Source of the DNA: Plantactinospora soyae
GTDB taxonomy: Bacteria; Actinomycetota; Actinomycetes; Mycobacteriales; Micromonosporaceae
DNA length: 64,000 bases
NCBI RefSeq assembly: GCF_014874095.1
Contig: NZ_JADBEB010000001.1
Location: 6,200,001-6,264,000, forward strand
Reading direction: 5' to 3'
This document shows, piece by piece, positions 1-18,650 of the stretch (position 1 is the stretch's first letter; the number at the start of each line of letters is the position of its first letter). The notes below the pieces were generated by a model. It made no database searches. It saw only the letters and a program-made list of their open reading frames with translations, and was not told the origin of the DNA. Both the position numbers and the translations under genes were made by a program.

Positions 1-333
1 TGCGCGGACCCCCGGGGCGTCCGGCACGTCCGCGCGGTCGTCGACCGGATCGCGGTGGCCCTGGCCGCCGACGCGGTGCCCGGGACGGGCGGAACCGTCG
101 CCGCCCGGGCCGGAACCGTCGCCGCCCGGGCCGGTGCCGCCGCCGCCCGGGTCGAGCGGTTGCTCGCCGGGGCCGGCCTGGCCCCCCTCGACGAGTTGCC
201 GGTCGACGCCCACGATCTGGCCGTCGAGGCCCTCAACTACCCCCGATGCCACGACAATCCGCGCCGGCTGGACGTCCCCGTCCTCCGCCGGCTCCTCGGC
301 ACTCCGCTGGGACTGGAGGAGTCATGCTCGTAG
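1..333 (+). CDS. phpC: Iron-containing alcohol dehydrogenase, 3' end (PhpC-like phosphonoacetaldehyde reductase), partial
   Basis: Only the last ~110 codons are present; the frame is open from base 1 to the TAG at 331-333. The C-terminal segment (LAVEALNYPRCHDNPRR followed by VPVLRRLLG) has the pattern of group III iron-containing alcohol dehydrogenases, which end in a helix, an 'NPRP' turn and a last helix. In phosphinothricin (PTT) producers the PhpC member of this family reduces phosphonoacetaldehyde to 2-hydroxyethylphosphonate, the substrate of the next gene. The 3' end overlaps the phpD start by 10 bases, so the two are probably translationally coupled. An alanine-rich 7-residue repeat (GTVAARA, GTVAARA, GAAAARV) interrupts the domain. 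The PhpC assignment rests mostly on context. Confidence 0.72.
   Translation, partial: CADPRGVRHVRAVVDRIAVALAADAVPGTGGTVAARAGTVAARAGAAAARVERLLAGAGLAPLDELPVDAHDLAVEALNYPRCHDNPRRLDVPVLRRLLGTPLGLEESCS
91..153 (+). repeat. Three in-frame 21-bp tandem repeats inside the phpC-like gene
   Basis: Units 91-111 and 112-132 are identical and 133-153 is a diverged copy. They encode GTVAARA, GTVAARA and GAAAARV. The period keeps the reading frame, so this reads as a coding minisatellite in a surface loop. Confidence 0.85.
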
Positions 334-1664
334 ACCCGTTCAAGGTCGCGCACTGGATGAACGCCCGCAAGCACACCTCGGCGCAGGTCGCCGAGCTGGC
401 CGGGATGCCCGGGGGAGCGTTGACCGACCTGCTCGGCGGCGGCGTCGCCGAGGTCGACGACGCGCTGCTGGGCCGCATCGCGCTGGCGCTGCGCGTCGAC
501 CCGGCCCAACTCTGCGCCCAGGGCGCCCGGGACCTCACCGTGGTGCACCAGTCGGCGGACGGGCTGGCCGCGACCTGCCGGCCGATCCAGCGCGACGGCA
601 TCCACTTCTACAACTACTACTCGATGGCGGCGCCGCCCGGCCGGGTGGCACCGGTCATCCTCGACATCCTCTGCCCGGCCGACCGGCTGCCCGCGCTCAA
701 CAACGGGCACCTGGAGCCGGCCATCACCGTCAACCTGGGACCCGGCGACATCCACGGCCGCTGGGGCCGGGAACTCACCCCGCAGACCTGGCAGGTGCTG
801 CACGCCAACCCCGGCGACGACCCGTGGATCGTCGGCGACTCGTACGTCGAACCGTCGTACTGCCCGCACAGCTACTCGCTCGCCGGCACCGCCCCGGCCC
901 GGATCGTCTCCTACACCGGACAGTCGAACATGGCGCCGGTGATCGAGGAGGCGAACGCCTGGTCCGACAGCGCCTACGCCCGGTACCTCGAACTGCTCGA
1001 CGGCGGGCTGCCCCCGGGTGACCTGCTGGACCTGCTGCTGGCCCGGCGCGGTCACCAACGGTCCTCCGCCGCGGCCGCGATCGGCCTCGACCCGGCGGCG
1101 CTGGACAAGGCGATCAGCGATCCGGTGGCCGGGATCCCCGTGCTCCGGGCCCTGGCCCGGACCGTGGGACTGGACTACCGGCTGCTGCTGCCGGCCGAGC
1201 GGAGCCACGACGAGGTCGGCAAGTCGTACCGGGACGTGCCGGGCGCCCGCGCGTCGCGCCGACGGCTCGGCCCGTACGAGGTGGCGTCGATGGCGAGCGC
1301 CCCGCACCTGCCCGACCTCACCGGGCTCTACCTGCTGGTCGACTCCGACGGGTCCGAGTCGCCCGGTGCCGACCTGGTGGAATCGGCGGAGTCGCACTAC
1401 TTCGTCGCCTCCGGTGTCCTCACCCTTGACTGGGACGACGCGCAGGGGCAGCGCCAGCGCACCACCCTCACCGCCGACGGCTCGGCGTGGGTCGGCCCGT
1501 TCGTCCGGCACCGCTGGTCCGGCGACGGCGCACTGCTGAAGTTCGGCTCCGGGTCGCACGTCGGCTATCTCGACCTGGTCGAACTGACCAACACGTACGC
1601 ACCGGCGGCCACCGCCCGGCGGGGCCGCCGCGACCTGTCCAGCTGGGGCTACGACGAGGGTTAG
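324..1664 (+). CDS. phpD: 2-hydroxyethylphosphonate dioxygenase (HEPD, PhpD)
   Basis: 446 aa, close to characterised HEPD (443 aa). The family is a mononuclear non-haem iron double-cupin enzyme that cleaves 2-hydroxyethylphosphonate to hydroxymethylphosphonate and formate with O2. The published HEPD residues fall at the same numbers here: iron ligands His129 (NNGHLEP), Glu176 and His182 (YVEPSYCPHSY), and substrate-site Lys16, Arg90, Tyr98 and Asn126. Glu at 176, not Gln, argues for HEPD rather than methylphosphonate synthase. ATG 324 was chosen because GGAGGA lies at 315-320 and it restores family length; the open frame extends upstream without a comparable site. A second cupin covers roughly residues 250-430. 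It is followed 9 bases later by phpE. Confidence 0.95.
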   Translation: MLVDPFKVAHWMNARKHTSAQVAELAGMPGGALTDLLGGGVAEVDDALLGRIALALRVDPAQLCAQGARDLTVVHQSADGLAATCRPIQRDGIHFYNYYSMAAPPGRVAPVILDILCPADRLPALNNGHLEPAITVNLGPGDIHGRWGRELTPQTWQVLHANPGDDPWIVGDSYVEPSYCPHSYSLAGTAPARIVSYTGQSNMAPVIEEANAWSDSAYARYLELLDGGLPPGDLLDLLLARRGHQRSSAAAAIGLDPAALDKAISDPVAGIPVLRALARTVGLDYRLLLPAERSHDEVGKSYRDVPGARASRRRLGPYEVASMASAPHLPDLTGLYLLVDSDGSESPGADLVESAESHYFVASGVLTLDWDDAQGQRQRTTLTADGSAWVGPFVRHRWSGDGALLKFGSGSHVGYLDLVELTNTYAPAATARRGRRDLSSWGYDEG

Positions 1665-1673
1665 GAGGCAACG

Positions 1674-2738
1674 ATGCGAGTGGTCTACACCGACCCGGCC
1701 TGGGCGCTCGACGCCCGCGGCCGACCCGATCCGAGCCGCGCCGACCTGGAACGCGGCATCCTCGGACCGGAGGTCAGCGTCGAGTTCGGTCCGTTCGAGA
1801 GCGGAACCGACCCCGGTCCGGCCGATGGTGCCCAGGTCGGACCGAGTGCCGACGGCGGCTTCGTGACCTGCGGCGACCAGCTGTTCGAGGCCGCCCGGGG
1901 GGCCGACGCACTGGTCATCTACCGGTGCCAGGTCACCTCGGAACTCGTCGAGGCACTCCGACCCAGCTGCCGGGTGGTCGCCCGCAGCGGCGTCGGCTTC
2001 GACAACCTCCGTCCCGACCTGCTGGCCACGGCCGGCATCTACGGATTCAACGTGCCGGACTACTGCGGTGACGAGGTGAGCACCCACACCGTGGCGCTGC
2101 TGCTCGGCCTGGAGCGGCAGATCTGCGTACAGGACCGGCTGGTCCGGGACAACCGGTGGGGGATCCACCGGGGTGGCATACCGCGCCGCACCGCGGAGCG
2201 TACGGTCGGGATCGTCGGTTTCGGCCGGATCGGCCGGGCCAGCGCCCGCAAGCTCCAGCCGTTCTACCACCGGGTCCTGGCCCACGACCCGTACGTGGCG
2301 GCCGACCTGATGGCCAGCCACGGCGTCGCCCCGGTTCCGAGCCTCCGCGAGTTGTTCGCCCGGTCGGACGCCGTGGTGATCCACGCGGCGCTGACCCCGG
2401 AAACGGACGGGCTGGTCGGCGCGGCGGCGCTCGGGGCCGCCGGCCCGGGAAGCCTGCTGGTCAACACGGCCCGGGGACGACTCGTCGACACCAAGGCCGT
2501 GCTCGACGCGCTCGACACGGGCCAACTCGCCGGCTTCGCCTCCGACGTCTTCGCGCCGGAGGACCCGAACGCCTCACCCACCGCCCGCAAGTTGCTCGCC
2601 CGGAACGACGTGATCGTCAGCTCCCATCGCGCGTTCCTGTCCGCCGAATCCGAGTTGAGCCTGCGCCGCCGCATCGCCGCGGGCGTCCGTGCGGTGCTCG
2701 TCGACGACGCGCCGCCGCCCGAGGGACGGCTGGCGTGA
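1674..2738 (+). CDS. phpE: D-2-hydroxyacid dehydrogenase-family oxidoreductase (PhpE-like hydroxymethylphosphonate dehydrogenase)
   Basis: 354 aa member of the 3-phosphoglycerate dehydrogenase superfamily. It shows the NAD-binding motif VGIVGFGRIG at about 178-187, the catalytic Arg in NTARGR (~267), an acidic residue near 296 and the catalytic His in SSHRAF (~318). In PTT biosynthesis the homologue PhpE oxidises hydroxymethylphosphonate to phosphonoformaldehyde, the step after HEPD. An AGGAG-type site (1662-1667) precedes ATG 1674. Its position between phpD and PEP mutase supports the role; from sequence alone it could only be called a D-2-hydroxyacid dehydrogenase. Confidence 0.88.
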   Translation: MRVVYTDPAWALDARGRPDPSRADLERGILGPEVSVEFGPFESGTDPGPADGAQVGPSADGGFVTCGDQLFEAARGADALVIYRCQVTSELVEALRPSCRVVARSGVGFDNLRPDLLATAGIYGFNVPDYCGDEVSTHTVALLLGLERQICVQDRLVRDNRWGIHRGGIPRRTAERTVGIVGFGRIGRASARKLQPFYHRVLAHDPYVAADLMASHGVAPVPSLRELFARSDAVVIHAALTPETDGLVGAAALGAAGPGSLLVNTARGRLVDTKAVLDALDTGQLAGFASDVFAPEDPNASPTARKLLARNDVIVSSHRAFLSAESELSLRRRIAAGVRAVLVDDAPPPEGRLA

Positions 2739-2788
2739 ACACCACCGGTCGCCACCCGCAGCCAGCTCGACACTTCTTTGGAGGAACG

Positions 2789-3757
2789 TTGACCACATCG
2801 GAAGACACCGGTCCGGGCCCGACCACCGACCAGCGCGGCGGCGCCGGCTCGCCCGGCGACCAACTCCGCCGGCTGCTCGTCGACGAGGCGCCCTGCGTCC
2901 TGATGGGGGTGCACGACGGGCTCAGTGCCCGGATCGCGGTCGAGGAGGGTTTCCGCGCGCTCTGGGCGTCCGGGCTCTGCATCTCCACCGCCCTCGGGGT
3001 ACGCGACAGCGACGAGGCGTCCTGGACGCAGCTGCTGAACAGCGTCGAGAGCATGGTGGACAACACCCGGGTACCGGTGCTCGTCGACGGCGACACCGGC
3101 CACGGCAACTTCAACACCGCACGCCGGTTCGCCAGCCGTGCCGAGCGGATCGGTGCCGCCGGAGTCTGCTTCGAGGACAAGACCTTCCCCAAGATGAACT
3201 CCTTCTTCGGGGCGGGCCATGAACTGGTGCCGGTGGCCGAGTTCTGCGGAAAAATCAAGGCCTGCAAGGACGGGCAGCAGGACCCGGGCTTCGTCGTCGT
3301 CGCGCGTACCGAGGCGTTCATCGCCGGGCAGCCGGTCGACGAGGCGGTGGCCAGGGCCGAGGCGTACGCGGCAGCCGGAGCGGACGCCATCTTCGTGCAC
3401 TCCCGGCAACCGACGGCGGTGGAGATCGCCGCCTTCTCCGCCCGATGGCACGGCCGGGTGCCGATCGTGATCGCACCGACGACGTACCACCGGACCACGC
3501 TGGACGAGTTCCACCAGCTCGGGGTCGGCGGGGTCATCTGGGCGAACCAGAGCATGCGGGCCGCGTTCAGCGCCATGCGCAAGGCCTGCCGGGACATGCG
3601 GTCGAGCGGGGTGATCAGCGGCGTCGAGGAGGAGATCGCCTCGCTGAAGGAGATCTTCGCGCTGCTGGGCTACGAGGACCTGGAGCGGGAGGAGCGGCGG
3701 TACGCCTCCTTCGACCCGCCGGTGCTGTCCACGGTGACCGGGGGGAACGCTCCATGA
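2789..3757 (+). CDS. aepX: Phosphoenolpyruvate phosphonomutase
   Basis: 322 aa from TTG 2789. PEP mutase converts PEP to phosphonopyruvate, the C-P bond-forming entry step of nearly all phosphonate pathways. The diagnostic EDKxxPKxNS signature is intact as EDKTFPKMNS (about 129-138), and the metal site DGDTGHGN lies at about 100-107 of the (beta/alpha)8 isocitrate-lyase-like barrel. The start is uncertain: TTG 2789 follows GGAGGA by only 3 bases, while an in-frame GTG at 2735 overlaps the phpE stop but lacks a good ribosome site. It overlaps the decarboxylase gene by 4 bases (ATGA). Confidence 0.95.
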   Translation: MTTSEDTGPGPTTDQRGGAGSPGDQLRRLLVDEAPCVLMGVHDGLSARIAVEEGFRALWASGLCISTALGVRDSDEASWTQLLNSVESMVDNTRVPVLVDGDTGHGNFNTARRFASRAERIGAAGVCFEDKTFPKMNSFFGAGHELVPVAEFCGKIKACKDGQQDPGFVVVARTEAFIAGQPVDEAVARAEAYAAAGADAIFVHSRQPTAVEIAAFSARWHGRVPIVIAPTTYHRTTLDEFHQLGVGGVIWANQSMRAAFSAMRKACRDMRSSGVISGVEEEIASLKEIFALLGYEDLEREERRYASFDPPVLSTVTGGNAP

Positions 3758-4938
3758 TCCGTGCCGAAGAGCTGATGGGGGCACTGGTCGACCACGCGGT
3801 GACGATGGTGACCGGGGTGCCGTGCTCCTTCCTCACCCCGGTCATCAACCGGGCCATCGGCGATCCGAGGGTGCGCTACCTCGCCGCCACCCAGGAGGGC
3901 GAGGCGGCGGCCATCGCGGCCGGTGCCTGGCTGGGCGGCGGGCTCGGCTGTGTCATCAGTCAGAACTCCGGTCTCGGCAACATGGTCAACCCGTTGACCT
4001 CGCTGCTGCACCCGGCCGGCATCCCGGCGCTGCTGCTGGTCACCTGGCGGGGCGAACCCGGCCGTCCCGACGAGCCGCAGCACGGGCTGATGGGGCGGAT
4101 CACTCCGGGGCTGCTCGACCTGATGGAGGTGCCGCACGCGACGCTGCCGGCCGACCCGGAGGCGTTGTCCGGCGCGTTCGCGGTGGCCACCGGCGAGCTG
4201 CTCCGGGCCGGCCGGCCGTACGCCTTCGTGATTCCGAAGGGGACGGTCGCGGCGGAGCCGCTGAACGAGTCCGCGCTGTCCCGGCGTACCGGCCGGATCG
4301 TCCGGCACCTGCCCGACGGGCCGGCACCGAGCCGGTGGGCGGCGCTGGAGTGCCTGCTGTCCGAGTTGCCGGAGAGTGCCGCCGTCGTCTCGACCACCGG
4401 GATGACCAGTCGGGAGCTGTACGAGATCGCCGACCGGGAACAGCACTTCTACCTGGTCGGCGCGATGGGTTCGGCCGGGGCGGTGGGACTCGGGGTGGCC
4501 GCGCACACCACCCGACCGGTGGTGGTCGTGGACGGCGACGGCGCCCTGCTGATGCGGCTCGGCGGGCTGGCCACGATCGGGGCGTACGGGGGTGACAATC
4601 TCGTGCACGTCGTACTGGACAACGGCGTGCACGACTCGACCGGCGGCCAGCGGACGCTGGCGTCCACCGTGGACTTCGTCGCCGCCGCTGCCGCCTGCGG
4701 CTACCGGCAGCTACACGACTGCACCCGGCCCGAGGCGTTCCGGGTGGCGATCGGGGCCGCACTGGCCGGCCCCGGGCCGAGCCTGGTCCGGCTCCGCACC
4801 AGACCGGGCTCGCGCAGTGGGCTGGGCCGGCCGGCGGTGACTCCGGCGCAGGTCGCCCGGCGGTTCCGCCGGTTCGTCACCACCGCCCCGACCGGCGGAC
4901 GGGTGGGCGCGGACGAGGTGCTGGGAGTCGTGGCGTGA
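3754..4938 (+). CDS. aepY: Phosphonopyruvate decarboxylase (ThDP-dependent)
   Basis: 394 aa, usual length for Ppd/AepY. It decarboxylates phosphonopyruvate to phosphonoacetaldehyde, which pulls the unfavourable PEP mutase equilibrium forward. The ThDP/Mg motif starts with GDGALLMRLGG and ends in the LDN Asn about 30 residues on (roughly 260-290). The N-terminal half carries a TQEGEA segment whose Glu is probably the cofactor-activating residue. ATG 3754 overlaps the aepX stop (ATGA) and its own stop overlaps the next gene (GTGA). Confidence 0.93.
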   Translation: MIRAEELMGALVDHAVTMVTGVPCSFLTPVINRAIGDPRVRYLAATQEGEAAAIAAGAWLGGGLGCVISQNSGLGNMVNPLTSLLHPAGIPALLLVTWRGEPGRPDEPQHGLMGRITPGLLDLMEVPHATLPADPEALSGAFAVATGELLRAGRPYAFVIPKGTVAAEPLNESALSRRTGRIVRHLPDGPAPSRWAALECLLSELPESAAVVSTTGMTSRELYEIADREQHFYLVGAMGSAGAVGLGVAAHTTRPVVVVDGDGALLMRLGGLATIGAYGGDNLVHVVLDNGVHDSTGGQRTLASTVDFVAAAAACGYRQLHDCTRPEAFRVAIGAALAGPGPSLVRLRTRPGSRSGLGRPAVTPAQVARRFRRFVTTAPTGGRVGADEVLGVVA

Positions 4939-5690
4939 GCGGTGTCCGGGTGACCTTCGCCGGTTCGGGTGACGCGTTCGGCAGCGGCGGGCGGTTGCAG
5001 GCCTGCGTACACCTGAGTCCGGTGGACGGACCGCCGATCCTGCTCGACTGCGGGGCGACCGCCCTGGTCGGGCTGAAGCGGCACGGCATCGAGCCGAACG
5101 ACGTCGGCACGGTGGTGCTCTCGCACCTGCACGGCGACCATTTCGCCGGGCTGCCGTACCTGATCCTCGACGGTCAGTTCCGGCGCCGGACCGGCCCGCT
5201 GGAGGTGATCGGGCCACCGGGCACGGAGGAACGGCTGCGGCAGGTCATGGAGCTGCTCTTTCCCGGCTCGACCCGGATCACCCGACGGTTCGAGGTGACG
5301 GTCCACGAGATCGAGCCGCACGGTCGGCTCGATCTCGCGGGGCTGTCGGTGCAGGCGTACCCGGCGGAGCACTTCGCCGGTGCGCCCGCGCTCTCCCTGC
5401 GGATCGGGCTCGGCGGCCGGGTCATCGCCTACAGCGGCGACACCGCCTGGACCGACACCCTGATCACCGTTGCCGACGGGGCGGACCTGTTCATCTGCGA
5501 GGCGTACACGTCCACCCGGGCGGTGCCGTTCCACCTGCACCTGCCGATGCTCCGGGACAACCTTCCCCGGCTCACCTGCCGGCGGATTGTCCTCACCCAC
5601 GCCGGGCCCGACGTCCTCGCCCGGGCCGGCGAACTCGACCTCGAAGCGCACCTCGAACTGGCCGACGACGACCGCGTCATCGACATATAG
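4935..5690 (+). CDS. Metallo-beta-lactamase-fold hydrolase (RNase Z/PhnP-like) within the phosphinate cluster
   Basis: 251 aa. The metal motif HLHGDH is at about 57-62, followed by further ligands in AEH (~140s) and SGDTAW (~160s), and a terminal His (LTHAGP). The architecture is closest to RNase Z/PhnP-type phosphodiesterases, not beta-lactamases. I do not recall an equivalent in the PTT gene set. A phosphodiester- or phosphonate-ester-cleaving role, for example on a CMP-phosphonate, is an inference from fold and context. It is coupled to aepY by a GTGA overlap and followed by phpF after 17 bases. Confidence 0.82.
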   Translation: MSGVRVTFAGSGDAFGSGGRLQACVHLSPVDGPPILLDCGATALVGLKRHGIEPNDVGTVVLSHLHGDHFAGLPYLILDGQFRRRTGPLEVIGPPGTEERLRQVMELLFPGSTRITRRFEVTVHEIEPHGRLDLAGLSVQAYPAEHFAGAPALSLRIGLGGRVIAYSGDTAWTDTLITVADGADLFICEAYTSTRAVPFHLHLPMLRDNLPRLTCRRIVLTHAGPDVLARAGELDLEAHLELADDDRVIDI

Positions 5691-5707: not shown

Positions 5708-6256
5708 GTGGACCACCCCTACCCACTTGGCGTCATCCACGGCAGGTTCCAACCCCTGCACCTCGGACACCTGGAATACCTGCTCGCCGGTGCCGACCGC
5801 TGCGACACCCTCGTCGTGGGCATCACCAACCCGGACCCGTGGCAGACCGCCGAGGAAGCCACCGACCCGGTACGCGGATCGGTGGAGGCGAACCCGTGTA
5901 CGTACTACGAGCGGTACCTGATGGTGGAGGCCGCGCTCACGCAGGCGGGCGTTCCGGACCACCGGCTGCGGATCGTGCCGTTCCCGCACAGCTTCCCGGA
6001 GCGGCTGCGTTACTACGCGCCGCCGGAAGCCGTCTACCTGCTGACCATCTACGACGACTGGGGCGCGGAGAAGCTCACCCGACTGGGCGCGCTCGGCCTG
6101 ACCACCGAGGTGATGTGGCGCCGGGTCGAGAAGCCGATCAGCGGCGGCCGGGTACGCCGGGCCATCGCCGCGGACGACGACTGGGAGCAGTTGGTGCCGC
6201 CCGCCGTGGCCACCGTGATCAAGGAGTGTGGGATCGATGCGCGAATCCGTGGTTGA
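5708..6256 (+). CDS. phpF: Nucleotidyltransferase, NMN-adenylyltransferase family (PhpF-like, CMP-phosphonoformate synthesis)
   Basis: 182 aa single-domain nucleotidyltransferase. HGRFQPLHLGH (11-21) contains the HxGH signature, and ISGGRVRR near 146-153 is the ISxxxxR motif. In PTT biosynthesis PhpF uses CTP to activate phosphonoformate as CMP-5'-phosphonoformate. GTG 5708 is supported by GGAGG at 5698-5702. The 3' end overlaps phpG by 20 bases. A generic NMN/pantetheine adenylyltransferase role is possible by fold, but the neighbours argue for PhpF. Confidence 0.87.
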   Translation: MDHPYPLGVIHGRFQPLHLGHLEYLLAGADRCDTLVVGITNPDPWQTAEEATDPVRGSVEANPCTYYERYLMVEAALTQAGVPDHRLRIVPFPHSFPERLRYYAPPEAVYLLTIYDDWGAEKLTRLGALGLTTEVMWRRVEKPISGGRVRRAIAADDDWEQLVPPAVATVIKECGIDARIRG

Positions 6257-7580
6257 CCGGGCGGACCCGGCGGACTCCGGTGCGGGCGCCGGCCGGGTCT
6301 TCGTGGTCGCGCTCTGCGGGGGCGGTGACCGGCCGATCGCGGAGTTGGCCGACCGGACCCCGTTCGAGGCGGCGGCCACCCCGCACCTGGACGAGCTGGC
6401 CCGGGACGGATGCAGCGGCCTGCTGGAGGTGATCCGGGCCGACGTGCCGCCGGAGTCGGACTCCGGCGCGATGGCCCTGCTCGGGTACGACCCGGTGCGC
6501 TACTACACCGGCCGGGGGCCGCTGGAGGGGCTGGGGATGGACTTCTGGGACGCCGACGGCTTCTCGGTGGCGTTCCGGATCAACTTCGCCAGCTGGCAGC
6601 CGGACACCGGTCGGCTGGACCGACGTACGTCCCGTGATCTGTCGGACGACGAACTCGAGGCCCTGGTGACGAGCGTCCGGGCCGAGGTACGCCTGACCGA
6701 CGACGTGGCGGTCCGGCTGACCGGCTTCGGCCGGCACCGGGGAATCCTGGCCCTGACCAGCCGGACGGTGCCGCTCTCCGGCCGGGTCACCAACACCGAC
6801 CCCGGGTTTGTCGCACTCGGCCCGTTCGGGGTACCGGTCGCCGATCCTCCCACGACACCGCTGCGCTGCCGGCCGGCACCGGGCCTCGACGGTACGCCGT
6901 CCGGCCTGAACGCCGAGGGCACCGCGCGGCTGGTGAACCAGTTCGTCGAACGCAGTGCCGCCGTGCTGGAGAACCATCCGGTGAACCTGGCCCGCCGGGC
7001 GGCCGGCCGACGGCCGGCGAACCTGATCCTGGTCCGCGACGGCGGCGACACCCTGCCGGTCCTGCCCTCCTTCGCCGCCGAGCGCGGCCTGCGGCTGTCG
7101 ATGTACGGGCAGGTGCCGGCCGAGCGTGGGCTCGCCCGACTGATCGGGGCGAGGTTCACCGTCGCCCGGGCCGGGCCGGGGGAGGACGACCGGTCGTTCT
7201 ACCGCACGCTGCTGCCGGCGTTGCTGGACGATCCCGCCGATGTCGTCTTCGTACACCTCAAGGGGCCCGACGAGCCGGGACACGACGGCCGGCCGCACGA
7301 CAAGGTGACGGCGATCGGCGACATCGACGGCGGCTTCGTCGGTCCGCTGCGCGCCCGGCTCGGCCCGCTGGACACCCTCGTCGTCACCTGTGACCACGCC
7401 ACCCCGTGCGAGCTGGGCATCCACGCGCCGGACCGGGTGCCGACGGTGGTCACCGGCCCCGGCGTACGACCGGACGGGGTGACCGGGTTCGGCGAGCGGG
7501 CCGCCGCCGGTGGTGGTCTTCCGGCCGCTCGGGCCAGCGAACTGCTGCCCTGGCTGCTCCGGCTGCGTAAGGGGCGCTGA
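6237..7580 (+). CDS. phpG: Cofactor-independent phosphoglycerate mutase homologue, archaeal type (PhpG-like)
   Basis: 447 aa, alkaline-phosphatase superfamily. It aligns by eye to archaeal-type iPGM: DRP (31-33), PPESDSGAMALLGYDP with the phosphorylatable Ser, YYTGRGPLEGLG, HLKGPDEPGHDG (one metal site) and TCDHATPCELGIH (the other). The first metal-binding Asp of the usual DGMxDRP is Cys27 here (CGGGDRP), so normal PGM catalysis may be impaired or altered. PTT clusters carry a similar gene whose step is not settled; supplying 2-phosphoglycerate to PhpH is one proposal. ATG 6237 was preferred over GTG 6228 because of spacing from AAGGAG (6221-6226). Confidence 0.85.
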   Translation: MRESVVDRADPADSGAGAGRVFVVALCGGGDRPIAELADRTPFEAAATPHLDELARDGCSGLLEVIRADVPPESDSGAMALLGYDPVRYYTGRGPLEGLGMDFWDADGFSVAFRINFASWQPDTGRLDRRTSRDLSDDELEALVTSVRAEVRLTDDVAVRLTGFGRHRGILALTSRTVPLSGRVTNTDPGFVALGPFGVPVADPPTTPLRCRPAPGLDGTPSGLNAEGTARLVNQFVERSAAVLENHPVNLARRAAGRRPANLILVRDGGDTLPVLPSFAAERGLRLSMYGQVPAERGLARLIGARFTVARAGPGEDDRSFYRTLLPALLDDPADVVFVHLKGPDEPGHDGRPHDKVTAIGDIDGGFVGPLRARLGPLDTLVVTCDHATPCELGIHAPDRVPTVVTGPGVRPDGVTGFGERAAAGGGLPAARASELLPWLLRLRKGR

Positions 7581-7582
7581 GG

Positions 7583-11101: not shown

Positions 11102-12340
11102 GTGGACCTGTTCGAAAAGGTGATCAACAGTCCGGGCAGTCCGATCGCGCAGATGTCGCGGGACATCCACGGCAGGTACGCGTTTCCGAGGCTGACCGGT
11201 GAGATCGGCAGCCGGATGCGGTACGGCGACACGGACCAGCTCGTCTGGAGCCTGAACAACTATCTCGGGCTGGCCAACCACCCGGAGGTCCGGGCCGCCG
11301 ACGCGCGGTTCGCCGCCCGGTACGGCCTGGCCGCGCCGATGGGCTCGCGGATGATGTCCGGCGAGACCGAGGACCTGGAACTGCTGGAGTCGGAACTGGC
11401 GGCGTACGCGGACAAGCCGGCCGCGCTGTTCCTGAACTTCGGCTACCAGGGCATGATCTCGTTGCTGGACTCGCTGCTCAGCCGGCGTGACTGGCTGGTC
11501 TACGACGCGGAGTGCCACGCCTGCATCATCGACGGCATCCGGCTGCACCGGGGCAAGGCAAAGTCCTTTCCGCACAACAACATCGAACGCCTCGAGGCGG
11601 TGCTGACCCGGATCGAGGCGGAGCGCGGCGACGACGAGGCGGTGCTGGTCGTCACCGAGGGCGTCTTCGGGATGTCCGGGGTGCAGGGGCGGCTGCGGGA
11701 CATCGTCGCGCTCAAGCAGCGGTTCAACTTCCGGCTCCTGGTCGACGACGCGCACGGCTTCGGGGTACTCGGTCCGGACGGCGGCGGCACCGGCGAGGAG
11801 CAGGGCTGCCAGGACGGCATCGACCTGTACTTCGGCACCTTCGCCAAGGCCGGCGCCAGCATCGGTGCCTTCGTCGCCTCGGACGCCGAGATCGTCTGGC
11901 GGCTGCGGTACGGGATGCGGTCGCAGATCTTCTCCAAGGGTCTGCCGTGGCCGGTGGTGGCCGGCAACCGGGTCCGGCTCGACATGATGCGCAACCGCCC
12001 CGAGCTGCGGCGCAAGTGTCTGGAGATCGCCGCGCACCTGCGTGCCGACCTGCGTGGGGTCGGGCTGGAGATCGGCGATCCGTCCAGCGCGGTGACCCCG
12101 GTGTTCCTGGGGCTGGAGGCCCCGCAGACCGCCGTCTTCCTGGAGCTGCTCCGGCACCGGTACGGGATCTTCTGCTCCGCCGTCACCTATCCGGTGGTGC
12201 CGCCGGGGGTGGTCCAGCTCCGGCTGATCGCCACCGCCACGCACGAGCACAGCGACGTCACGTACACGGTGGACGCGCTGCGCCGGGTGTACGAGGAGGT
12301 GACCGGGCGGAGCGAGATGGCGCTGTCCGCGCTCCGGTGA
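11102..12340 (+). CDS. PLP-dependent alpha-oxoamine synthase (AONS/KBL family)
   Basis: 412 aa, fold type I. Family hallmarks are GSRMMSGETEDLELLE, the DDAHGFGVLGP aspartate motif and the PLP lysine in FGTFAKAGAS (Lys249). Relatives (8-amino-7-oxononanoate, 2-amino-3-ketobutyrate, 5-aminolevulinate and sphingosine-type synthases) join an amino acid to an acyl-CoA, usually with loss of CO2. I know of no such enzyme in PTT clusters, so here it probably makes a new C-C bond on the phosphinate scaffold; substrates are unknown. GTG 11102 follows AGGGGAGGA (11087-11096), and its stop overlaps the aminotransferase start (GTGA). Confidence 0.9.
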   Translation: MDLFEKVINSPGSPIAQMSRDIHGRYAFPRLTGEIGSRMRYGDTDQLVWSLNNYLGLANHPEVRAADARFAARYGLAAPMGSRMMSGETEDLELLESELAAYADKPAALFLNFGYQGMISLLDSLLSRRDWLVYDAECHACIIDGIRLHRGKAKSFPHNNIERLEAVLTRIEAERGDDEAVLVVTEGVFGMSGVQGRLRDIVALKQRFNFRLLVDDAHGFGVLGPDGGGTGEEQGCQDGIDLYFGTFAKAGASIGAFVASDAEIVWRLRYGMRSQIFSKGLPWPVVAGNRVRLDMMRNRPELRRKCLEIAAHLRADLRGVGLEIGDPSSAVTPVFLGLEAPQTAVFLELLRHRYGIFCSAVTYPVVPPGVVQLRLIATATHEHSDVTYTVDALRRVYEEVTGRSEMALSALR

Positions 12341-13797
12341 GCACCGACCTGGCCCGGAGCGCCGAACCGGCGACCGGCACCGGGCTGGTCCGCCGGCCGG
12401 GCAGCGCCCCGGCGGCGGAGATCCTGGCCCGGGCGTCGGCGATCGCCGCCCAGCCGATGCGGGAGATCGCGCCCGAGCGGTTGGAGTCGGAGCTGGCCGA
12501 GTTCCGGCGCCGTACGCCGGGCTCGGCGACGCTCTTCGGGCGGGCCCAGAGAGTGCTGGCCCGGGGGAGCGAGCACGTCGACCCGCTCTCCTCGCCGTAC
12601 CCGCTGTTCCTGGACCACGGTGCCGGGGGCGAGGTCGTGGACGTCGACGGCAACCGGTACGTCGACTGCATCCTGGCCGGTGGCGCGCTCAGCCTCGGGC
12701 ACAACCATCCCGGGTTGAACGCCGCGGTCGTCGACCTGCTCCGGGAGCGTACCGGCTTCCACGGCCACCTCGACGAGTTCGAGGTGCTCGCCGCCGAACG
12801 GATCATCGAGGTCTTTCCGGCGGCCGAGGCGGTCCGGTTCGTCGGCTCCGGCGCCGAGGCCGACCTCGCGGCGGCGCGGATCGCGCGGGCGTACACCGGA
12901 CGACGCAAGATCATCAAATTCCGGGGCCACTACCACGGCTGGGGCGACCAGTTCATGGTGGACCTGGAGGTGCCGGGGTCCGGCGACTTCATGGCCGGCG
13001 GGGTGCCGCCGGAGCACTACGCGCACACCGTGCTGGTGCACCCGCACCGGCTCGACGACCTGGCGGCGGCACTGGCCGCCGGCGACGTCGCGGCGGTGAT
13101 CAGTGAACCGTTCGGCGGCGAGTCCGGCCTGGTGCCGTTCGCCGACGACTTCCATCAACAGGCCATCGCACTGGCCCACCGGCACGGCGCGCTGTACGTG
13201 TTCGACGAGGTCGTCACCGGCACCCGGGCCGGGATCGGTGGCGCGCACGCGGTGCTGGGCGTCCGCCCCGACCTGATCACCCTCGGCAAGGGACTGATGA
13301 ACGGCTACCCGTCCTGCGGGGCGGTCGCCGGGCGGCGGGAGGTCATCGAGGCGGCCGGGACCGGGCTACCGGACGGCCGGCCGTTCACCTACATCGGCGG
13401 CACCATGTCCGGCAACGTGCTGTCGGCGGCGGCCTGTTACCACACCCTCGGCGAACTGACCCGGCCCGGCGTACTCGACGGTGCCATCGCGGTCACCGCC
13501 GACCTGGTGCTCCGGCTCAACGCGCTCTTCTCCGCCGGCGGTGTGCCGTTCTTCGCGTACCACTTCGGCACGATCCTGCGGATCGAGCTGACCGCGCCGC
13601 ACGCGCTGCCCGTGGACGCCGAGCGGCTGCCGGAGATCATCGCCCGGCGGGCGCTGCTCGCCGACTACATGATTCCGGTGGTCAACGCCGGGGTGCTGTC
13701 CCGGATGGGTCGGGACATGCTCTCCTGCGGGCACACCCGGGCCGACAGTGACCGGGTGGTGAACGCGTATGCCCGACTCGTCGAACTACTCGGCTGA
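12337..13797 (+). CDS. Class III aminotransferase (glutamate-1-semialdehyde aminomutase-like)
   Basis: 486 aa with an N-terminal extension of about 60 residues. The core shows VDVDGNRYVDC, FVGSGAEADLAAARIARAYTG, FDEVVTGTRAG and the PLP lysine in LGKGLMNGYP (Lys318). GSA-aminomutase-like members often act in secondary metabolism as transaminases or aminomutases. In this context it could aminate phosphinopyruvate or a keto product; that is inference. GTG 12337 is set by the overlap with the oxoamine synthase stop. The 3' end overlaps the SDR gene by 29 bases, an unusually long overlap. Confidence 0.9.
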   Translation: MSTDLARSAEPATGTGLVRRPGSAPAAEILARASAIAAQPMREIAPERLESELAEFRRRTPGSATLFGRAQRVLARGSEHVDPLSSPYPLFLDHGAGGEVVDVDGNRYVDCILAGGALSLGHNHPGLNAAVVDLLRERTGFHGHLDEFEVLAAERIIEVFPAAEAVRFVGSGAEADLAAARIARAYTGRRKIIKFRGHYHGWGDQFMVDLEVPGSGDFMAGGVPPEHYAHTVLVHPHRLDDLAAALAAGDVAAVISEPFGGESGLVPFADDFHQQAIALAHRHGALYVFDEVVTGTRAGIGGAHAVLGVRPDLITLGKGLMNGYPSCGAVAGRREVIEAAGTGLPDGRPFTYIGGTMSGNVLSAAACYHTLGELTRPGVLDGAIAVTADLVLRLNALFSAGGVPFFAYHFGTILRIELTAPHALPVDAERLPEIIARRALLADYMIPVVNAGVLSRMGRDMLSCGHTRADSDRVVNAYARLVELLG

Positions 13798-14740
13798 ACC
13801 GCCGATCGATCCGACGCCGACCGAACAACCGGTGCCGGGCGGACAACCGGTGCCGACTGGACAACCGGTGCCGGGCGGCACGGCGTACGACGCGACGGAG
13901 CCGGGAGGTGCGGCCTCGGGCGGGCCGTCGACCGGCACCGGGCCGGCCGGGACGGTCCTGGTCACCGGGGCGACCTCGGGAATCGGGCTCGCCGTCAGCC
14001 GGCTCTTCGTCGACCGGGGGGTGCGGGTGCTGGGCACCTCCCGGAATCCCGACGACATTCCCGCGCCGGACCGGATCCCCGGCGTGACCTACCTGGCCCT
14101 GGACCAGTCGGATCCGGCGAGCGTACGGGCCTGCGCGAAGGCGGCCGGTCCGGTCGACGTACTGGTCAACAACGCCGGGCACAGCCAGGGCGGCGCCCTG
14201 GAGGACCTGCCGGAGGAACAGCTGGAGCAACTGTTCCGGATCAACGTGCTGGGACCGGTCGGGTTGGCCCGCGCGGTACTGCCGGCCATGCGGGCCGCCG
14301 GGCACGGCCGGTTGATCTTCGTGGGTTCACTGATGGCCGAGTTCCCGGTGCCGTTCCAGGGCAGCTACGCGGCCTCCAAACTGGCCCTGCGCGGTTTCGT
14401 CACGGCGCTGCGCACCGAGGTCGCGCCGTTCGGCATCCAGGCCACCCTGGTTCAGCCGGCCTACTACCGGTCGGCCATCGACCGGCACCGCGCCTGGCAC
14501 ACGACGCCGGACTCGCCGTACCGGGACCGGGTGGGCGTGGTCAGCGCGCGGGTCCGGGCCCAGCACCAGAGCGCGGCGGACCCGGCGGAGGTGGCCGAGC
14601 GGATCTGGCGACTGAGCCGGGCCGCCCGGTTGCCGGTCGTCTCCATGATCGGCGGCAACGGCGCCACCCTGCGTCTCGTCCGGCGCTTCCTGCCCGACCG
14701 CGTCGCCGAGCGGCTGGTCGCCCGCCGGTACGGCCTCTGA
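13769..14740 (+). CDS. Short-chain dehydrogenase/reductase with repetitive N-terminal tail
   Basis: 323 aa. Residues 1-65 are a Pro/Gly/Thr-rich low-complexity tail with three GQPVPG/T-type units. The SDR domain follows: cofactor motif TGATSGIG, NNAG, catalytic Tyr200 and Lys204 (YAASK), and a long C-terminal part like classical SDRs acting on hydrophobic or large substrates. Within the cluster it may reduce the keto group made by the oxoamine synthase; this is inferred from order only. The start at ATG 13769 lies inside the aminotransferase gene; a downstream start near residue 55 would also leave a complete domain. Confidence 0.85.
   Translation: MPDSSNYSAEPPIDPTPTEQPVPGGQPVPTGQPVPGGTAYDATEPGGAASGGPSTGTGPAGTVLVTGATSGIGLAVSRLFVDRGVRVLGTSRNPDDIPAPDRIPGVTYLALDQSDPASVRACAKAAGPVDVLVNNAGHSQGGALEDLPEEQLEQLFRINVLGPVGLARAVLPAMRAAGHGRLIFVGSLMAEFPVPFQGSYAASKLALRGFVTALRTEVAPFGIQATLVQPAYYRSAIDRHRAWHTTPDSPYRDRVGVVSARVRAQHQSAADPAEVAERIWRLSRAARLPVVSMIGGNGATLRLVRRFLPDRVAERLVARRYGL
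13825..13878 (+). repeat. Three 18-bp tandem repeats in the SDR N-terminal tail
   Basis: Units begin at 13825, 13843 and 13861, each starting ACAACCGGTGCC, and encode six-residue units with QPVPG or QPVPT. They lie in a disordered extension ahead of the SDR fold. Confidence 0.85.
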
Positions 14741-14868: not shown

Positions 14869-15969
14869 ATGACCCAGACCCTGGACCGGTCCGCCGTACC
14901 GGACGGCACGCCCAGCGCGCTGTCGGTGATCGACACGGACGTACACGAGATGATCGGCAACCCACTGGAGTTCCTCCAGTACGTCGAGGAGCCCTGGCGG
15001 GGGCGGATCCACCCGGACAACTGGATGGGCATCTCCATCCCGTACTCCTGGCCCACCACCGGCGGGCTGGCCCGGCCGGACGCCCGGCCGACCAACGGGC
15101 TGCGGGCCGGCTCCGACTACCAGTTGATGCGCACCCAGCACCTTGACGCCTTCAACATCAAGCACGCCGTACTGACCGGGCTGCTGTACCCGAGCGAGTT
15201 CAAGGTGCAGCCGGACTTCGCGGTCGGGCTGTCCCAGGCGTACAACCGGTGGGTCGTCAACGAGTGGCTGGCCAAGGACTCCCGCTTCCTCGGCTCGATC
15301 TGCGTGGCGGCACAACGGCCGGACGACGCGGTGGCCGAGATCGAGAAGTGGGCCTCGCATCCGCAGATGGTGCAGGTGCTGCTCCCGGTGATCTCGCACG
15401 ACACGATGGGCCGGGACTACTACCACCCGATCTACGAGGCGGCGGTCCGGAACAACCTGGTCGTCGGCTTCCACCAGGGCGCGAACGTGGAGACCGCGGT
15501 CGGACTGCCCACCTACTTCCTGGAGTGGCACACCGCGATCTCCCAGGCCTGGCAGTGCCAGCTCATCAGCCTGGTCGTACACGGGGTCTTCGAGAAGTTC
15601 CCCGACCTGCGGGTGGTGATGATCGAGTCCAGTTGGACCTGGCTGCCCCACCTGATGTGGCGCTTCGACCACAACTACCGGAGCCTGCGCCGGGAGGTTC
15701 CGTGGGTGAAGCGGCTGCCCAGCGAGTACATCCGGGACCAGGTCAGGTTCACCACCCAGCCGATGGAGTTCGCGGAGAACCCCGACCACCTGTACCAGAT
15801 GTTCGAGATGGTGGGTAACGACGAGTTCCTGATGTTCTCCTCGGACTACCCGCACTGGGACTTCGACGCCCCGGACCGCTCGCTGCCGAGTTCCTTTCCA
15901 CCCGACATCCGCCGGAAGGTGCTGCACGACAACGCGGCGAAGTTCTACCAGCTCGGGGCGGCGCGATGA
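14869..15969 (+). CDS. Amidohydrolase-2 family metal-dependent hydrolase (ACMSD-like)
   Basis: 366 aa TIM-barrel amidohydrolase. It starts with VIDTDVHE, the family DxH metal motif, and ends with SSDYPHWDFDAP, whose Asp is the usual catalytic or metal residue; ESSWTWLPHLMWRFD is the typical 2-amidohydrolase segment. Members decarboxylate or hydrolyse small acids (ACMSD, resorcylate decarboxylase). ATG 14869 follows AAGGAG. The stop overlaps the Rieske gene (ATGA). Such amidohydrolase-Rieske pairs are known in actinomycetes in other contexts, so membership in the phosphinate cluster is plausible but not proven. Confidence 0.85.
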   Translation: MTQTLDRSAVPDGTPSALSVIDTDVHEMIGNPLEFLQYVEEPWRGRIHPDNWMGISIPYSWPTTGGLARPDARPTNGLRAGSDYQLMRTQHLDAFNIKHAVLTGLLYPSEFKVQPDFAVGLSQAYNRWVVNEWLAKDSRFLGSICVAAQRPDDAVAEIEKWASHPQMVQVLLPVISHDTMGRDYYHPIYEAAVRNNLVVGFHQGANVETAVGLPTYFLEWHTAISQAWQCQLISLVVHGVFEKFPDLRVVMIESSWTWLPHLMWRFDHNYRSLRREVPWVKRLPSEYIRDQVRFTTQPMEFAENPDHLYQMFEMVGNDEFLMFSSDYPHWDFDAPDRSLPSSFPPDIRRKVLHDNAAKFYQLGAAR

Positions 15970-16355
15970 GCACGACCGAGCAGACGTCGACCCGGCGGCG
16001 CCAACGCCACGTCGTGTGCGGAGTCGACGAACTCGCGCCCGGCAGCACCCGGCTGCACGCGGTCGGCCACCGGCAGATCGTGGTCGGGCACGTACCCGGG
16101 CACGGGTACGTCGCGCTGTCGAACTACTGCGCGCACCAGGGAGGTCCGCTCTCCGCCGGCTCGTTCGAGGCGATGTGGACGGCGGAGAAGGTGGGCGAGC
16201 GGATCCAGGACCCGGACCGCTGGGTGCTGATCTGCCCGTACCACAACTTCGAGATCGACGCCGCCACCGGCTGCCCGGTGGCCCGGTTGGGTACCGCCCG
16301 CACCGCCACCTACCGGGTGGCGGTCGAAGCCGACGAGATCGTCGTCTACGTCTGA
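15966..16355 (+). CDS. Rieske [2Fe-2S] ferredoxin-like protein
   Basis: 129 aa single-domain protein. The cluster ligands are Cys55-x-His57 (CAHQGG) and Cys90-x2-His93 (CPYHNFEID). The 32-residue gap between the two motifs is longer than in most Rieske ferredoxins because of an insertion (residues ~64-85). No oxygenase catalytic domain is present, so it probably transfers electrons to, or is a small subunit of, a partner, possibly the amidohydrolase with which it overlaps. Confidence 0.87.
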   Translation: MSTTEQTSTRRRQRHVVCGVDELAPGSTRLHAVGHRQIVVGHVPGHGYVALSNYCAHQGGPLSAGSFEAMWTAEKVGERIQDPDRWVLICPYHNFEIDAATGCPVARLGTARTATYRVAVEADEIVVYV

Positions 16356-16451
16356 GTGGCGTACACGTCCGAGTAGGTGACCACGTCCGCACCCGGCCGC
16401 CGGCAGTCGGCAACCCGGGGCGGACGTGGTCCCGCAGGGAGGCAGTCCGAA

Positions 16452-18650
16452 GTGCTCCGCAACCACGGTAGGTTCGTGTCCCGCCATCCGAAGAAGATCC
16501 TCGGCGTCGCGGCGCTGCTGCTCGCCGGTGCCGTCTATCTCGGGATGGGCGCGTTCGACGTCCTGCGCAGCGGCGGGTTCGAGGACCCCGCCGCCGAGTC
16601 GACCCGGGCCAGGGACCTGATCGAGTCCGAGTTCGGCGGGCAGACAAACCTCGTCCTGCTGGTCCGGGCGAAGGAGGGGACCGTGGACAGCCCCGCCGTC
16701 CGCGAGGCCGGGGCCGCGCTGACGACCCGGCTGGCCGGCGAGTCCGGGGTCGAGAACGTCGGATCGTACTGGCAGAACAACGTGCCTGACCTCCGCTCGG
16801 CCGACGGCACGATGGCGCTGGTGCTCGGGCACGTCGCCGGGGACGACGAGCAGGTGAGCGACCGTACCGAGGCGTTGCTGGCCCGGTTCCCCGCCGACGA
16901 GGGGCCGGTGACCGTCACACCCGGCGGCGAGGTGGTGGCCAACCAGGACGTACGCGACGAGGTCAACCGGAGCCTGGTGCTGGCCGAGGCGATCGCCGTA
17001 CCCGCGATCCTGCTGCTGCTCGTGCTGGTCTTCGGCAGTGTGATGTCGACGATGGTGCCACTGGTCATCGCCGCCGCCGCCACCGCCGGCACCCTCGCCG
17101 AGCTGTACCTGCTGGGCTCGGTCACCGACGTCTCGGAGTTCGCGATCAACCTGGCCACGGCGCTCGCCCTCGGGCTCAGCGTCGACTACGCCCTGCTGAT
17201 GGTGAGCCGGTTCCGGGAACGGCTCGCCGCCGGTGACCCGGTACCGGAGGCGGTGGCCACGACGATGGGCACCGCGGGCCGGACCATCGTCTTCTCCGCC
17301 GCCACCGTCGCCGCGGCTCTGGCCGCCCTGCTGGTGTTTCCGCAGTTCTTCCTCCGCTCCTTCGCCTACGCCGGGATCGGCGTGGTGCTGATCGCCGCCG
17401 CCACCGCGCTGGTGGTGACCCCGGCCCTGCTCGCCCTGCTCGGCCACCGGATCAACGGAGGTCGGCTGCCCTGGTCCCGGGCCGCCCGTGGGGCCGACTC
17501 ACCGGTCTGGGGCGGTCTGGCCGCCGTCGTGATGCGACGCCCGCTGCTCACCGCGACGCCGGTGGTCGTACTGCTGCTGCTCGCCGCCGCGCCGCTGTCG
17601 GCGGTGCACTTCGGCAGCCCGGACCAGGGCGCGTTGCCGCAGCGGGTCGCCAGTCGACAGGTGGCCGACACCATCCGGGACCACTTCGACGCGAACGTCT
17701 GGACCGCGACCGACATCGTCGTACCCGGCCAGGTCGAGCCGGACGAGCTGGCCGGGTACGCCGGCCGGCTCGTCGCGCTGCCCGGGGTGGCCGGCACCAT
17801 CACCAGTGTCGGCGCGTTCAGCCGGGACGGCGCCGGCCCCGGCGACCCCGGCCTGGGCAGCCCGGACGCGCAACGGCTGTCGGTGTTCACCACCGTCCCG
17901 CCGAAGTCCGACACCGCGCAGAAACTCATCCGGGCGATCCGGGCTGTTCCCGGACCAGGGAACGCGTCGACCCTGGTCAGCAGCTCCGAGGCGCGGCTGG
18001 CGGACACCAAGAAGGCCATCGGCGACCGGCTTCCGCTGGCCGGGCTGCTCGTCGGACTCACCACCTTCATCGCGCTGTTCCTGTTCACCGGCAGCGTGAT
18101 CCAGCCGGTCCGGGCGCTGCTGTTGAACGTACTCAGCCTCTCCGCGACCCTCGGGGTGATGGTCTGGGTGTTCCAGCAGGGACACCTGGCGGACTGGCTC
18201 GGCTTCACCCCACGCCCGCTGGACACCGCGATGACCGTACTGCTGCTCTGTGTCGCCTTCGGGTTGTCGATGGACTACGAGGTCTTCCTGATCAGTCGGA
18301 TACACGAACTGCATCTCGCCGGCCACGACACCCGGACGGCGGTGATCGAGGGCCTGGCCCGGACCGGCCGGATCGTCTCGGCGGCGGCCGCGCTGCTCGC
18401 GATCAGCTTCTTCGCCTTCGGTACCAGTTCGGTGAGCTTCCTCCAGATGTTCGGCCTCGGCACCGGGCTGGCGATCCTGATCGACGCGACCCTGGTACGC
18501 GGTGTGCTGGTGCCGGCCCTGATGCGTGCCTTCGGACCCCGGATCTGGTACGCGCCCCGGCTGCTGCGCCGGCTGCACGAACGGGTCGATCTCAGCGAGT
18601 CCTCCCGGGAGGAGGTGATCCCGCTGGCCCCGGCCACAGTTGAGCGTTGA
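16452..18650 (+). CDS. MMPL/RND-family transporter
   Basis: About 732 aa with the two-fold MMPL layout: one N-terminal membrane helix, an extracytoplasmic loop, a five-helix bundle, then the same pattern again. The paired proton-relay motifs LGLSVDYALLMVSRFRE and FGLSMDYEVFLISR are both intact. GTG 16452 was chosen because GGGAGG lies at 16437-16442; an in-frame GTG at 16377 would add 25 residues of low complexity. As the last + strand gene before a strong hairpin, it is a candidate exporter for the cluster product; substrate unknown. Confidence 0.85.
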   Translation: MLRNHGRFVSRHPKKILGVAALLLAGAVYLGMGAFDVLRSGGFEDPAAESTRARDLIESEFGGQTNLVLLVRAKEGTVDSPAVREAGAALTTRLAGESGVENVGSYWQNNVPDLRSADGTMALVLGHVAGDDEQVSDRTEALLARFPADEGPVTVTPGGEVVANQDVRDEVNRSLVLAEAIAVPAILLLLVLVFGSVMSTMVPLVIAAAATAGTLAELYLLGSVTDVSEFAINLATALALGLSVDYALLMVSRFRERLAAGDPVPEAVATTMGTAGRTIVFSAATVAAALAALLVFPQFFLRSFAYAGIGVVLIAAATALVVTPALLALLGHRINGGRLPWSRAARGADSPVWGGLAAVVMRRPLLTATPVVVLLLLAAAPLSAVHFGSPDQGALPQRVASRQVADTIRDHFDANVWTATDIVVPGQVEPDELAGYAGRLVALPGVAGTITSVGAFSRDGAGPGDPGLGSPDAQRLSVFTTVPPKSDTAQKLIRAIRAVPGPGNASTLVSSSEARLADTKKAIGDRLPLAGLLVGLTTFIALFLFTGSVIQPVRALLLNVLSLSATLGVMVWVFQQGHLADWLGFTPRPLDTAMTVLLLCVAFGLSMDYEVFLISRIHELHLAGHDTRTAVIEGLARTGRIVSAAAALLAISFFAFGTSSVSFLQMFGLGTGLAILIDATLVRGVLVPALMRAFGPRIWYAPRLLRRLHERVDLSESSREEVIPLAPATVER

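Follow-up and report, generated by a model that had tools for sequence, protein, structure and literature searches.

The window analysed here, a 64,000 nt stretch of the single-contig, 9.7 Mb genome of Plantactinospora soyae (contig positions 6,200,001–6,264,000), opens with a gene cluster in which the early steps of phosphinothricin tripeptide (PTT) biosynthesis are joined to a late branch of a different kind. Seventeen + strand genes run from phpC to a gene for an MMPL-family exporter (Table 1), with intergenic gaps that range, for the start codons adopted here, from −10 to 128 bp, and with 4-bp overlaps in four gene pairs. The cluster probably makes an H-phosphinate analogue of the capnine or sphinganine-1-phosphate base, a ‘phosphinolipid’, via a six-step route that would use a SulA-type alpha-oxoamine synthase (AOS). 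We hold it nearly certain that the early cassette is present and the PTT late branch absent, and are just as sure that the AOS is of the SulA type and that an amidohydrolase-related dinuclear oxygenase (ARO) and a Rieske protein form a pair.

The early gene set leading to phosphinopyruvate is established for PTT. In the window, phosphoenolpyruvate (PEP) mutase, phosphonopyruvate decarboxylase, PhpG and carboxyphosphonoenolpyruvate (CPEP) mutase all score above curated NCBIfam cut-offs, and PhpC, PhpD, PhpE, PhpF, PhpH and PhpJ are 54–75% identical to the products of same-order genes of the phosalacine producer Kitasatospora phosalacinea. The common order is phpC-D-E-ppm-ppd-phpF-G-H-CPEP mutase-phpJ, at 54–81% identity overall, and the PTT clusters of Streptomyces viridochromogenes and Streptomyces hygroscopicus presumably have the same early gene order. 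CMP-phosphonoformate is described as a PTT intermediate (PMC12288639). A first-pass annotation of this DNA had placed the early genes in one + strand run and predicted that they lead to phosphinopyruvate. Open reading frames and profile scores recovered every one of them where it had been placed, and the prediction is supported by the curated cut-offs, the synteny with K. phosalacinea and the CPEP mutase tree. The list itself was sound for the genes that it named and incomplete in one respect, since it omitted a metallo-beta-lactamase (MBL)-fold gene at 4935–5690, between the decarboxylase gene and phpF. This gene is common to the Actinoallomurus spadix region (52%) and the metagenome-assembled genome (MAG) AC_30 (53%).

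The assignment of the protein encoded at 8786–9673 as CPEP mutase was set against the alternative of a methylisocitrate lyase, which failed and is ruled out. The protein exceeds the TIGR02319 cut-off with 553.5 bits, whereas its score against the methylisocitrate lyase model TIGR02317 (311.5 bits) is below the cut-off of 354.4. Moreover, in a tree a 100/100 branch unites it with the enzymes from eleven other loci and sets these apart from 11 PrpB-like rows (12 were chosen and one with stop codons was dropped). The window enzyme is 81% identical to that of K. phosalacinea. It is 90% identical to the Nonomuraea copies, whereas the flanking phpH and phpJ reach 53–69%, which hints at transfer of, or stronger constraint on, the CPEP mutase gene.

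The K. phosalacinea locus has an aconitase-like gene upstream of the cassette, and its phpJ is followed by genes for radical-SAM/B12, HMGL-like, adenylation-plus-carrier and GNAT acetyltransferase proteins, which we take to be PhpK, PmS, PhsA and the acetyltransferase of PTT. Homologues of all the late genes are present in the same order in OK074, and also in G353, where the acetyltransferase and Pmi genes lie apart on the opposite strand. The K. phosalacinea Pmi, PhpK, PmS, PhsA and acetyltransferase proteins, with their domains checked, were used as tblastn queries against 104 kb, from 40 kb upstream of the window to the window end. The best match of the five was PhsA against an AMP ligase at 44.8 kb (32.3 bits), and the other four gave none above 26.6 bits (PmS best 24.6, Pmi best 22.7). 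Across the whole P. soyae genome the best PhpK score was 25.6 bits, where the OK074 orthologue reaches 1035, and the best PmS match had 65.8 bits (34% identity over a part), so that neither has an orthologue there. A location elsewhere in the genome is thus ruled out for PhpK and PmS; the searches for PhsA, Pmi and the acetyltransferase covered the 104 kb. The earlier claim that the late PTT genes are missing was therefore borne out for the neighbourhood, the search to −40 kb having found no nonribosomal peptide synthetase (NRPS) and no P-methylase, and it follows that the phosphorus should keep its P–H bond. The accompanying proposal, an H-phosphinate product unlike bialaphos or phosalacine, is supported by the lack of PhpK and PmS orthologues and with the different late branch.

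Instead of the PTT late genes, the window has genes for an AOS, a class III aminotransferase (AT3), a short-chain dehydrogenase (SDR), an ARO, a Rieske protein and an MMPL protein after phpJ, in addition to the extra MBL-fold gene. All six post-phpJ genes had been listed, the ARO as an amidohydrolase, and all were found on the + strand. The first-pass annotation was right that this is a different branch; what it missed was the meaning of the branch, namely that the oxoamine synthase is of the SulA type and that the ‘amidohydrolase’ and the Rieske protein are a monooxygenase pair.

The best PDB matches of the AOS are 7u7h (427 bits) and 28eh, a Cysteate-C-fatty acyltransferase (420 bits), followed by serine palmitoyltransferase (SPT, 197 bits) and KBL (167 bits). 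The 7u7h structure is SulA of Alistipes finegoldii, described as condensing cysteate with acyl-acyl carrier protein (acyl-ACP) to 3-ketocapnine in the first step to sulfonolipids, with activity shown on 16:0-ACP; its Lys281 is Ala in SPT and was proposed as a distinguishing residue (PMC9304779). SulA residues N53, H140, K251, K281 and R376 correspond to N52, H139, K249, K279 and R374 of the window AOS and are present in all four phosphinate-cluster AOS, and the diagnostic Lys position is occupied by Ala and Thr in two other AOS-family proteins of the P. soyae genome. When 12 AOS were placed on a tree, those of the four phosphinate clusters formed one 100/100 clade, nested in a 100/99 set together with AOS from Bacteroidota and one from a Legionella lytica plasmid. 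Further relatives are few. A search of 397 genomes of the order (E 1e-60) gave one match, the P. soyae genome itself, and 396 genomes of the phylum (E 1e-70) gave two, P. soyae and G840 (38% identity, Ala at the diagnostic position); among plasmids, 5 of 72,556 records carry a relative (E 1e-40).

On the L. lytica plasmid (3989–8860), the AOS gene adjoins both a gene for a 970-aa fusion of AMP ligase, carrier protein and phosphosulfolactate synthase, and a phosphosulfolactate phosphatase gene. These neighbours would provide the first steps to sulfopyruvate and cysteate together with an acyl carrier, and the locus is likely to be a sulfonolipid operon outside the Bacteroidota, as judged from its gene content.

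Cysteate is 3-sulfoalanine and can be obtained by transamination of sulfopyruvate. By analogy, transamination of phosphinopyruvate would yield 3-phosphinoalanine, the P–H counterpart of cysteate. No source of cysteate itself was found in the four host genomes, as none has ComA (the search did recover its control on the L. lytica plasmid) or a cysteate synthase above the cut-off of 324.9 bits (best weaker relatives 54–67 bits each). An H-phosphinic amino acid is reported to be accepted by a pyridoxal phosphate enzyme, E. coli glutamate decarboxylase (PMC9814759, PMC11533085). In A. spadix a FabF gene lies 10 bp after the Rieske gene (509 bits, cut-off 493.75) and an ACP gene adjoins an Nramp gene (75.5 bits, cut-off 70.45); together these would be what an acyl-ACP-using synthase needs. 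We consider 3-phosphinoalanine to be the likely AOS substrate, with good confidence.

The protein encoded at 14869–15969, the former ‘amidohydrolase’, matches 8sm7, 8sm8 and 8sm9 (321, 318 and 282 bits), SfbO 8sm6 (240 bits) and AibH2 (220 bits). Proteins of this type are described as amidohydrolase-related dinuclear oxygenases, of which an adjacent small Rieske protein is the sign (PMC10811679), and six metal ligands with an acidic second-site marker of binuclear sites are reported for AibH2 (PMC7782822). The corresponding residues, D24, H26, H202, E253, D326 and H329 with the acidic marker D331, are kept in all three ARO found here, and the PF04909 gene overlaps by 4 bp a gene for a small Rieske protein with C-x-H and C-x2-H motifs. 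The complete ligand set, the acidic marker and the adjacent Rieske protein argue for an oxygenase pair and not a hydrolase; on this and the structure matches the hydrolase function is rejected and the protein reassigned as an ARO monooxygenase. AibH2 is reported to use, and SfbO to prefer, Mn/Fe (PMC10811679). For the window ARO, a dinuclear Fe/Fe or Mn/Fe centre is predicted. A linked Nramp gene could supply manganese for it, an attractive but unproven idea. Nramp homologues (tblastn, E ≤ 1e-5) were found only in Plantactinospora alkalitolerans and A. spadix, which with the window makes three of the three ARO-bearing clusters and no others. The search took in 13 loci and two extended stretches, covering 60 kb for G353, G241 and Amycolatopsis anabasis and 20 kb for each of the others. 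This linkage rests on only two lineages.

The proposed route would begin with the conversion of PEP to phosphinopyruvate by PEP mutase (Ppm), the decarboxylase (Ppd), PhpC–PhpH, CPEP mutase and PhpJ, the step with most direct support in the sequence. The AT3 would then transaminate phosphinopyruvate to 3-phosphinoalanine, which the SulA-type AOS would condense with acyl-ACP or acyl-CoA, with loss of CO2, to a 2-amino-3-oxoalkyl-1-phosphinate; here the enzyme class is established and the substrate presumed. Reduction of the ketone by the SDR would give a 2-amino-3-hydroxyalkyl-phosphinate resembling capnine and sphinganine-1-phosphate. The ARO, whose class is likewise established, may hydroxylate the molecule with electrons from its own Rieske ferredoxin, perhaps with Nramp-supplied manganese, and the MMPL protein would export the lipid. 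The early pathway and the enzyme classes are read from gene and protein comparisons; the substrate, the chain length and the product are presumed. A long-chain lipid is moderately favoured. The chances seem even that these clusters make unreported sphingoid- or capnine-like H-phosphinate lipids, hydroxylated by an ARO (possibly Mn/Fe) and in A. spadix perhaps glycosylated with an aminodeoxysugar. No such cluster or product is described in the open-licence literature, among the matches listed, and absence there is not proof.

When GTDB genomes were scanned with the CPEP mutase, 10 loci matched at 63–98% identity, after which the values dropped to ≤ 53%. With the window and G353 there are 12 loci, comprising four of AOS type (the window, P. 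alkalitolerans S1510, A. spadix and A. anabasis), three of PTT or phosalacine type, three from Nonomuraea with no recognised late branch and two from MAGs, where the neighbouring genes differ. P. alkalitolerans has all 17 genes in the same order at 86–98% identity, which excludes chance. A. spadix belongs to another order (Thermomonosporaceae; the window family is Micromonosporaceae) and keeps the phpJ-AOS-AT3-SDR-ARO-Rieske run at 55–80%; its cluster also has homologues of the MBL-fold gene nearby and of the decarboxylase gene (62%). A late-branch run common to two orders is strong evidence of a real cluster. Throughout, the AOS gene immediately follows phpJ in each of the four loci that carry it.

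In a tree of phpE, F, G, H and J (one row per locus, 12 loci; phpC, phpD, ppm, ppd and the mutase omitted), the loci of K. phosalacinea and OK074 come out as the closest relatives of the window set (86/91, not a starred branch). A single origin of the AOS-type clusters by their early genes is disfavoured (approximately unbiased test, p 0.0157) although their AOS form one clade. It seems either that different late branches were swapped on a common early cassette or that the AOS branch is old and was repeatedly lost or replaced; the data do not discriminate between the two. A plasmid search with the early genes returned 58 records, of which the best 20 match the ppm/ppd part only.

Several loci recovered alongside carry other gene sets. 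About 71–82 kb along the A. spadix contig, downstream of its cluster, are genes for an NDP-hexose 2,3-dehydratase, a dTDP-glucose 4,6-dehydratase, RfbH-like and DesI-like aminotransferases, an activator-dependent-family glycosyltransferase and a P450, the sugar genes suggesting a product decorated with an aminodeoxysugar. An Isosphaeraceae-labelled (planctomycete) MAG contig has a CPEP mutase gene, a PmS-like gene (69%), phpE, J, F, G and H and a cupin gene, and would represent a phosphinate-type cluster outside the Actinomycetota. In MAG AC_30 the early cassette is followed by two ATP-grasp amino acid ligase genes, a citrate synthase gene and, as judged by eye, an MmgE/PrpD-like gene, apparently another distinct late branch. 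G241 (C4:1163144–1164395) has a phpF-phpG-cupin-phpE-phpJ locus, with phpG matched in two overlapping pieces in different frames and no CPEP mutase match within 60 kb.

A number of observations weigh against a phosphinolipid product. No ACP, FabF or acyl ligase was recognised by eye in the gene list of the window cluster, and the SDR fits generic SDR models better than the one for 3-ketodihydrosphingosine reductase (144 bits, against a cut-off of 400). Arg replaces the diagnostic Lys in two of the four Bacteroidota plasmid AOS, so this residue is not absolute. A. anabasis has the AOS and no close AT3, SDR, ARO or Rieske homologue in 60 kb, the nearest being a class III relative at 29%, some 19 kb distant, and an SDR at 27%, which indicates that the transamination, reduction and hydroxylation enzymes are not obligatory partners of the AOS. 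Finally, by eye, W341 is the one compared sulfate-binding residue of SfbO that is kept, N67, R232 and R235 being W61, H221 and I224 in the window ARO; with three of four differing, SfbO-like recognition of a sulfonate or phosphonate is unsupported.

The missing acyl-supply genes would suit a short acyl donor (acetyl, propionyl or succinyl), and the product would then be an H-phosphinate antibiotic, a small aminoketone or amino alcohol soluble in water, and not a lipid. The phosphinates known as natural products are small molecules, and it is common for AOS enzymes to use short acyl donors. Nevertheless, the nearest characterised enzyme, SulA, was shown with a C16 acyl-ACP, ACP and FabF genes stand beside the conserved block in A. 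spadix, and the exporter is of the MMPL type, with MmpL3 as best model (319 bits, cut-off 1400), which leaves a small product the less likely outcome, at perhaps one chance in several. It is improbable that the AOS acts on an ordinary amino acid or cysteate, with the phosphinate unit attached elsewhere or processed separately. Sequence matches give the AOS family and not its substrate, and the AT3 could use another keto acid; against this stand the AOS position directly behind phpJ in all four loci, the failure to find a cysteate source in the hosts, and an operon with no ligase or NRPS to join two halves.

The late genes of a phosphinothricin-like peptide cluster might also lie elsewhere in the genome, as may hold for Nonomuraea candida. 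The sequenced strain of that species, NRRL B-24552, and DSM 45086 are presumably the same type strain. The three Nonomuraea loci have phpC–phpJ only, in stretches that reach about 1.2 kb upstream of phpC and about 8.6 kb beyond phpJ. N. candida DSM 45086 is reported to produce 2-phosphinomethylmalic acid and desmethylphosphinothricin (PMC12723261). For the window this explanation is very improbable, since P. soyae has no PhpK or PmS orthologue and the AOS, AT3, SDR, ARO and Rieske genes sit in a single operon and are found again, in the same order, in another family. The N. candida locus has the same ten early genes as the window, but nothing was recognised in the 8.6 kb after phpJ, where the window has its dedicated late branch. 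Both reported N. candida products are H-phosphinates, and in that genome PhpK scored at most 41 bits and PmS gave nothing at E 1e-15; H-phosphinates made with no PhpK or PmS orthologue fit the P–H retention predicted for the window product.

The proposed phosphinolipid route resembles the Bacteroidota sulfonolipid (capnine/sulfobacin) pathway in its AOS family, its active-site Lys and its logic, in which a 3-X-alanine gives a 3-keto base that is then reduced. It differs in that X would be an H-phosphinate and not a sulfonate, in lacking cysteate synthase and ComA, in its actinomycete host and in the additional ARO hydroxylase. With the ARO systems (AibH2, SfbO and PtmU3, with AibG-type Rieske proteins) it has in common the 4-bp PF04909–Rieske overlap, the six ligands and the acidic marker; unlike them, it has most of the compared SfbO sulfate-binding residues replaced and no AibF-type reductase gene recognised in the window cluster. 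Invertebrate phosphonosphingolipids, in which a 2-aminoethylphosphonate head group is carried on ceramide, likewise have a C–P bond in a sphingolipid, but in the window product the phosphorus would sit in the long-chain base itself, as a phosphinate.

If the proposal is correct, there is a second, conserved use of phosphinopyruvate and a new chemical class, the early cassette is a module bearing different late branches, and the SulA family extends from sulfonate to phosphinate substrates. The products would mimic sphingosine-1-phosphate or capnine while being stable to hydrolysis, and would be of interest for signalling and for inhibition of lipid enzymes. With concrete strains, concrete genes and one diagnostic NMR signal, the proposal is directly testable.

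Table 1. Genes of the P. soyae cluster and its upstream flank; positions are relative to window base 1.
Gene or product	Position	Strand	Basis
TetR	−4760..−4101		69% homologue near A. spadix cluster
MFS	−4048..−2678		53% homologue near A. spadix cluster
Nramp	−2492..−1293	−	55% homologue near A. spadix cluster
phpC, 3′ part, Fe-dependent alcohol dehydrogenase	1..333	+	PF00465, PF25137; gene start at −932
phpD, 2-hydroxyethylphosphonate dioxygenase-like	324..1664	+	weak helix-turn-helix and cupin matches; named via K. phosalacinea homologue (59%)
phpE, 2-hydroxyacid dehydrogenase family	1674..2738	+	68% to K. phosalacinea
PEP mutase	2789..3757	+	TIGR02320 337.8 bits (cut-off 319.55); motif EDKTFPKMNS
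Phosphonopyruvate decarboxylase	3754..4938	+	TIGR03297 394 bits (cut-off 312.5)
MBL-fold hydrolase	4935..5690	+	homologues near A. spadix cluster and in MAG AC_30
phpF, phosphonoformate cytidylyltransferase-like	5708..6256	+	75% to K. phosalacinea
phpG, CMP-5′-phosphonoformate–3-phosphoglycerate phosphonoformyl transferase	6249..7580	+	NF038358 692.8 bits (cut-off 545)
phpH, enolase-like	7583..8770	+	profile match and homology to other loci
CPEP mutase, predicted phosphinopyruvate former	8786..9673	+	TIGR02319 (cut-off 420.05); tree
phpJ, aldehyde dehydrogenase	9677..11077	+	73% to K. phosalacinea
SulA/CFAT-type AOS	11102..12340	+	7u7h, 28eh and SPT matches; five residues (see text)
AT3, HemL/D-phenylglycine-aminotransferase-like; predicted phosphinopyruvate to phosphinoalanine	12337..13797	+	
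SDR, predicted 3-keto reductase	13868..14740	+	
ARO	14869..15969	+	six ligands plus D331 (see text)
Small Rieske ferredoxin, predicted ARO electron donor	15966..16355	+	C55-x-H ... C90-x2-H
MMPL-family exporter (predicted)	16377..18650	+	nearest model MmpL3, far below cut-off

The gene pairs with 4-bp overlaps include AOS/AT3 as well as ARO/Rieske. The cluster seems, from the gene content upstream, to start before window base 1, with the TetR, MFS and Nramp genes. The MFS gene is a non-exclusive marker of AOS-type clusters, since G241 carries a partial 52% homologue. Behind the cluster, at 18743–26350, are genes for a 575-aa protein with a hemopexin match, an LGFP-repeat protein, a polyglycine-hydrolase-like protein and a 940-aa regulator-like protein. 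These probably lie outside the cluster; by eye, several of them likewise stand behind the P. alkalitolerans cluster.

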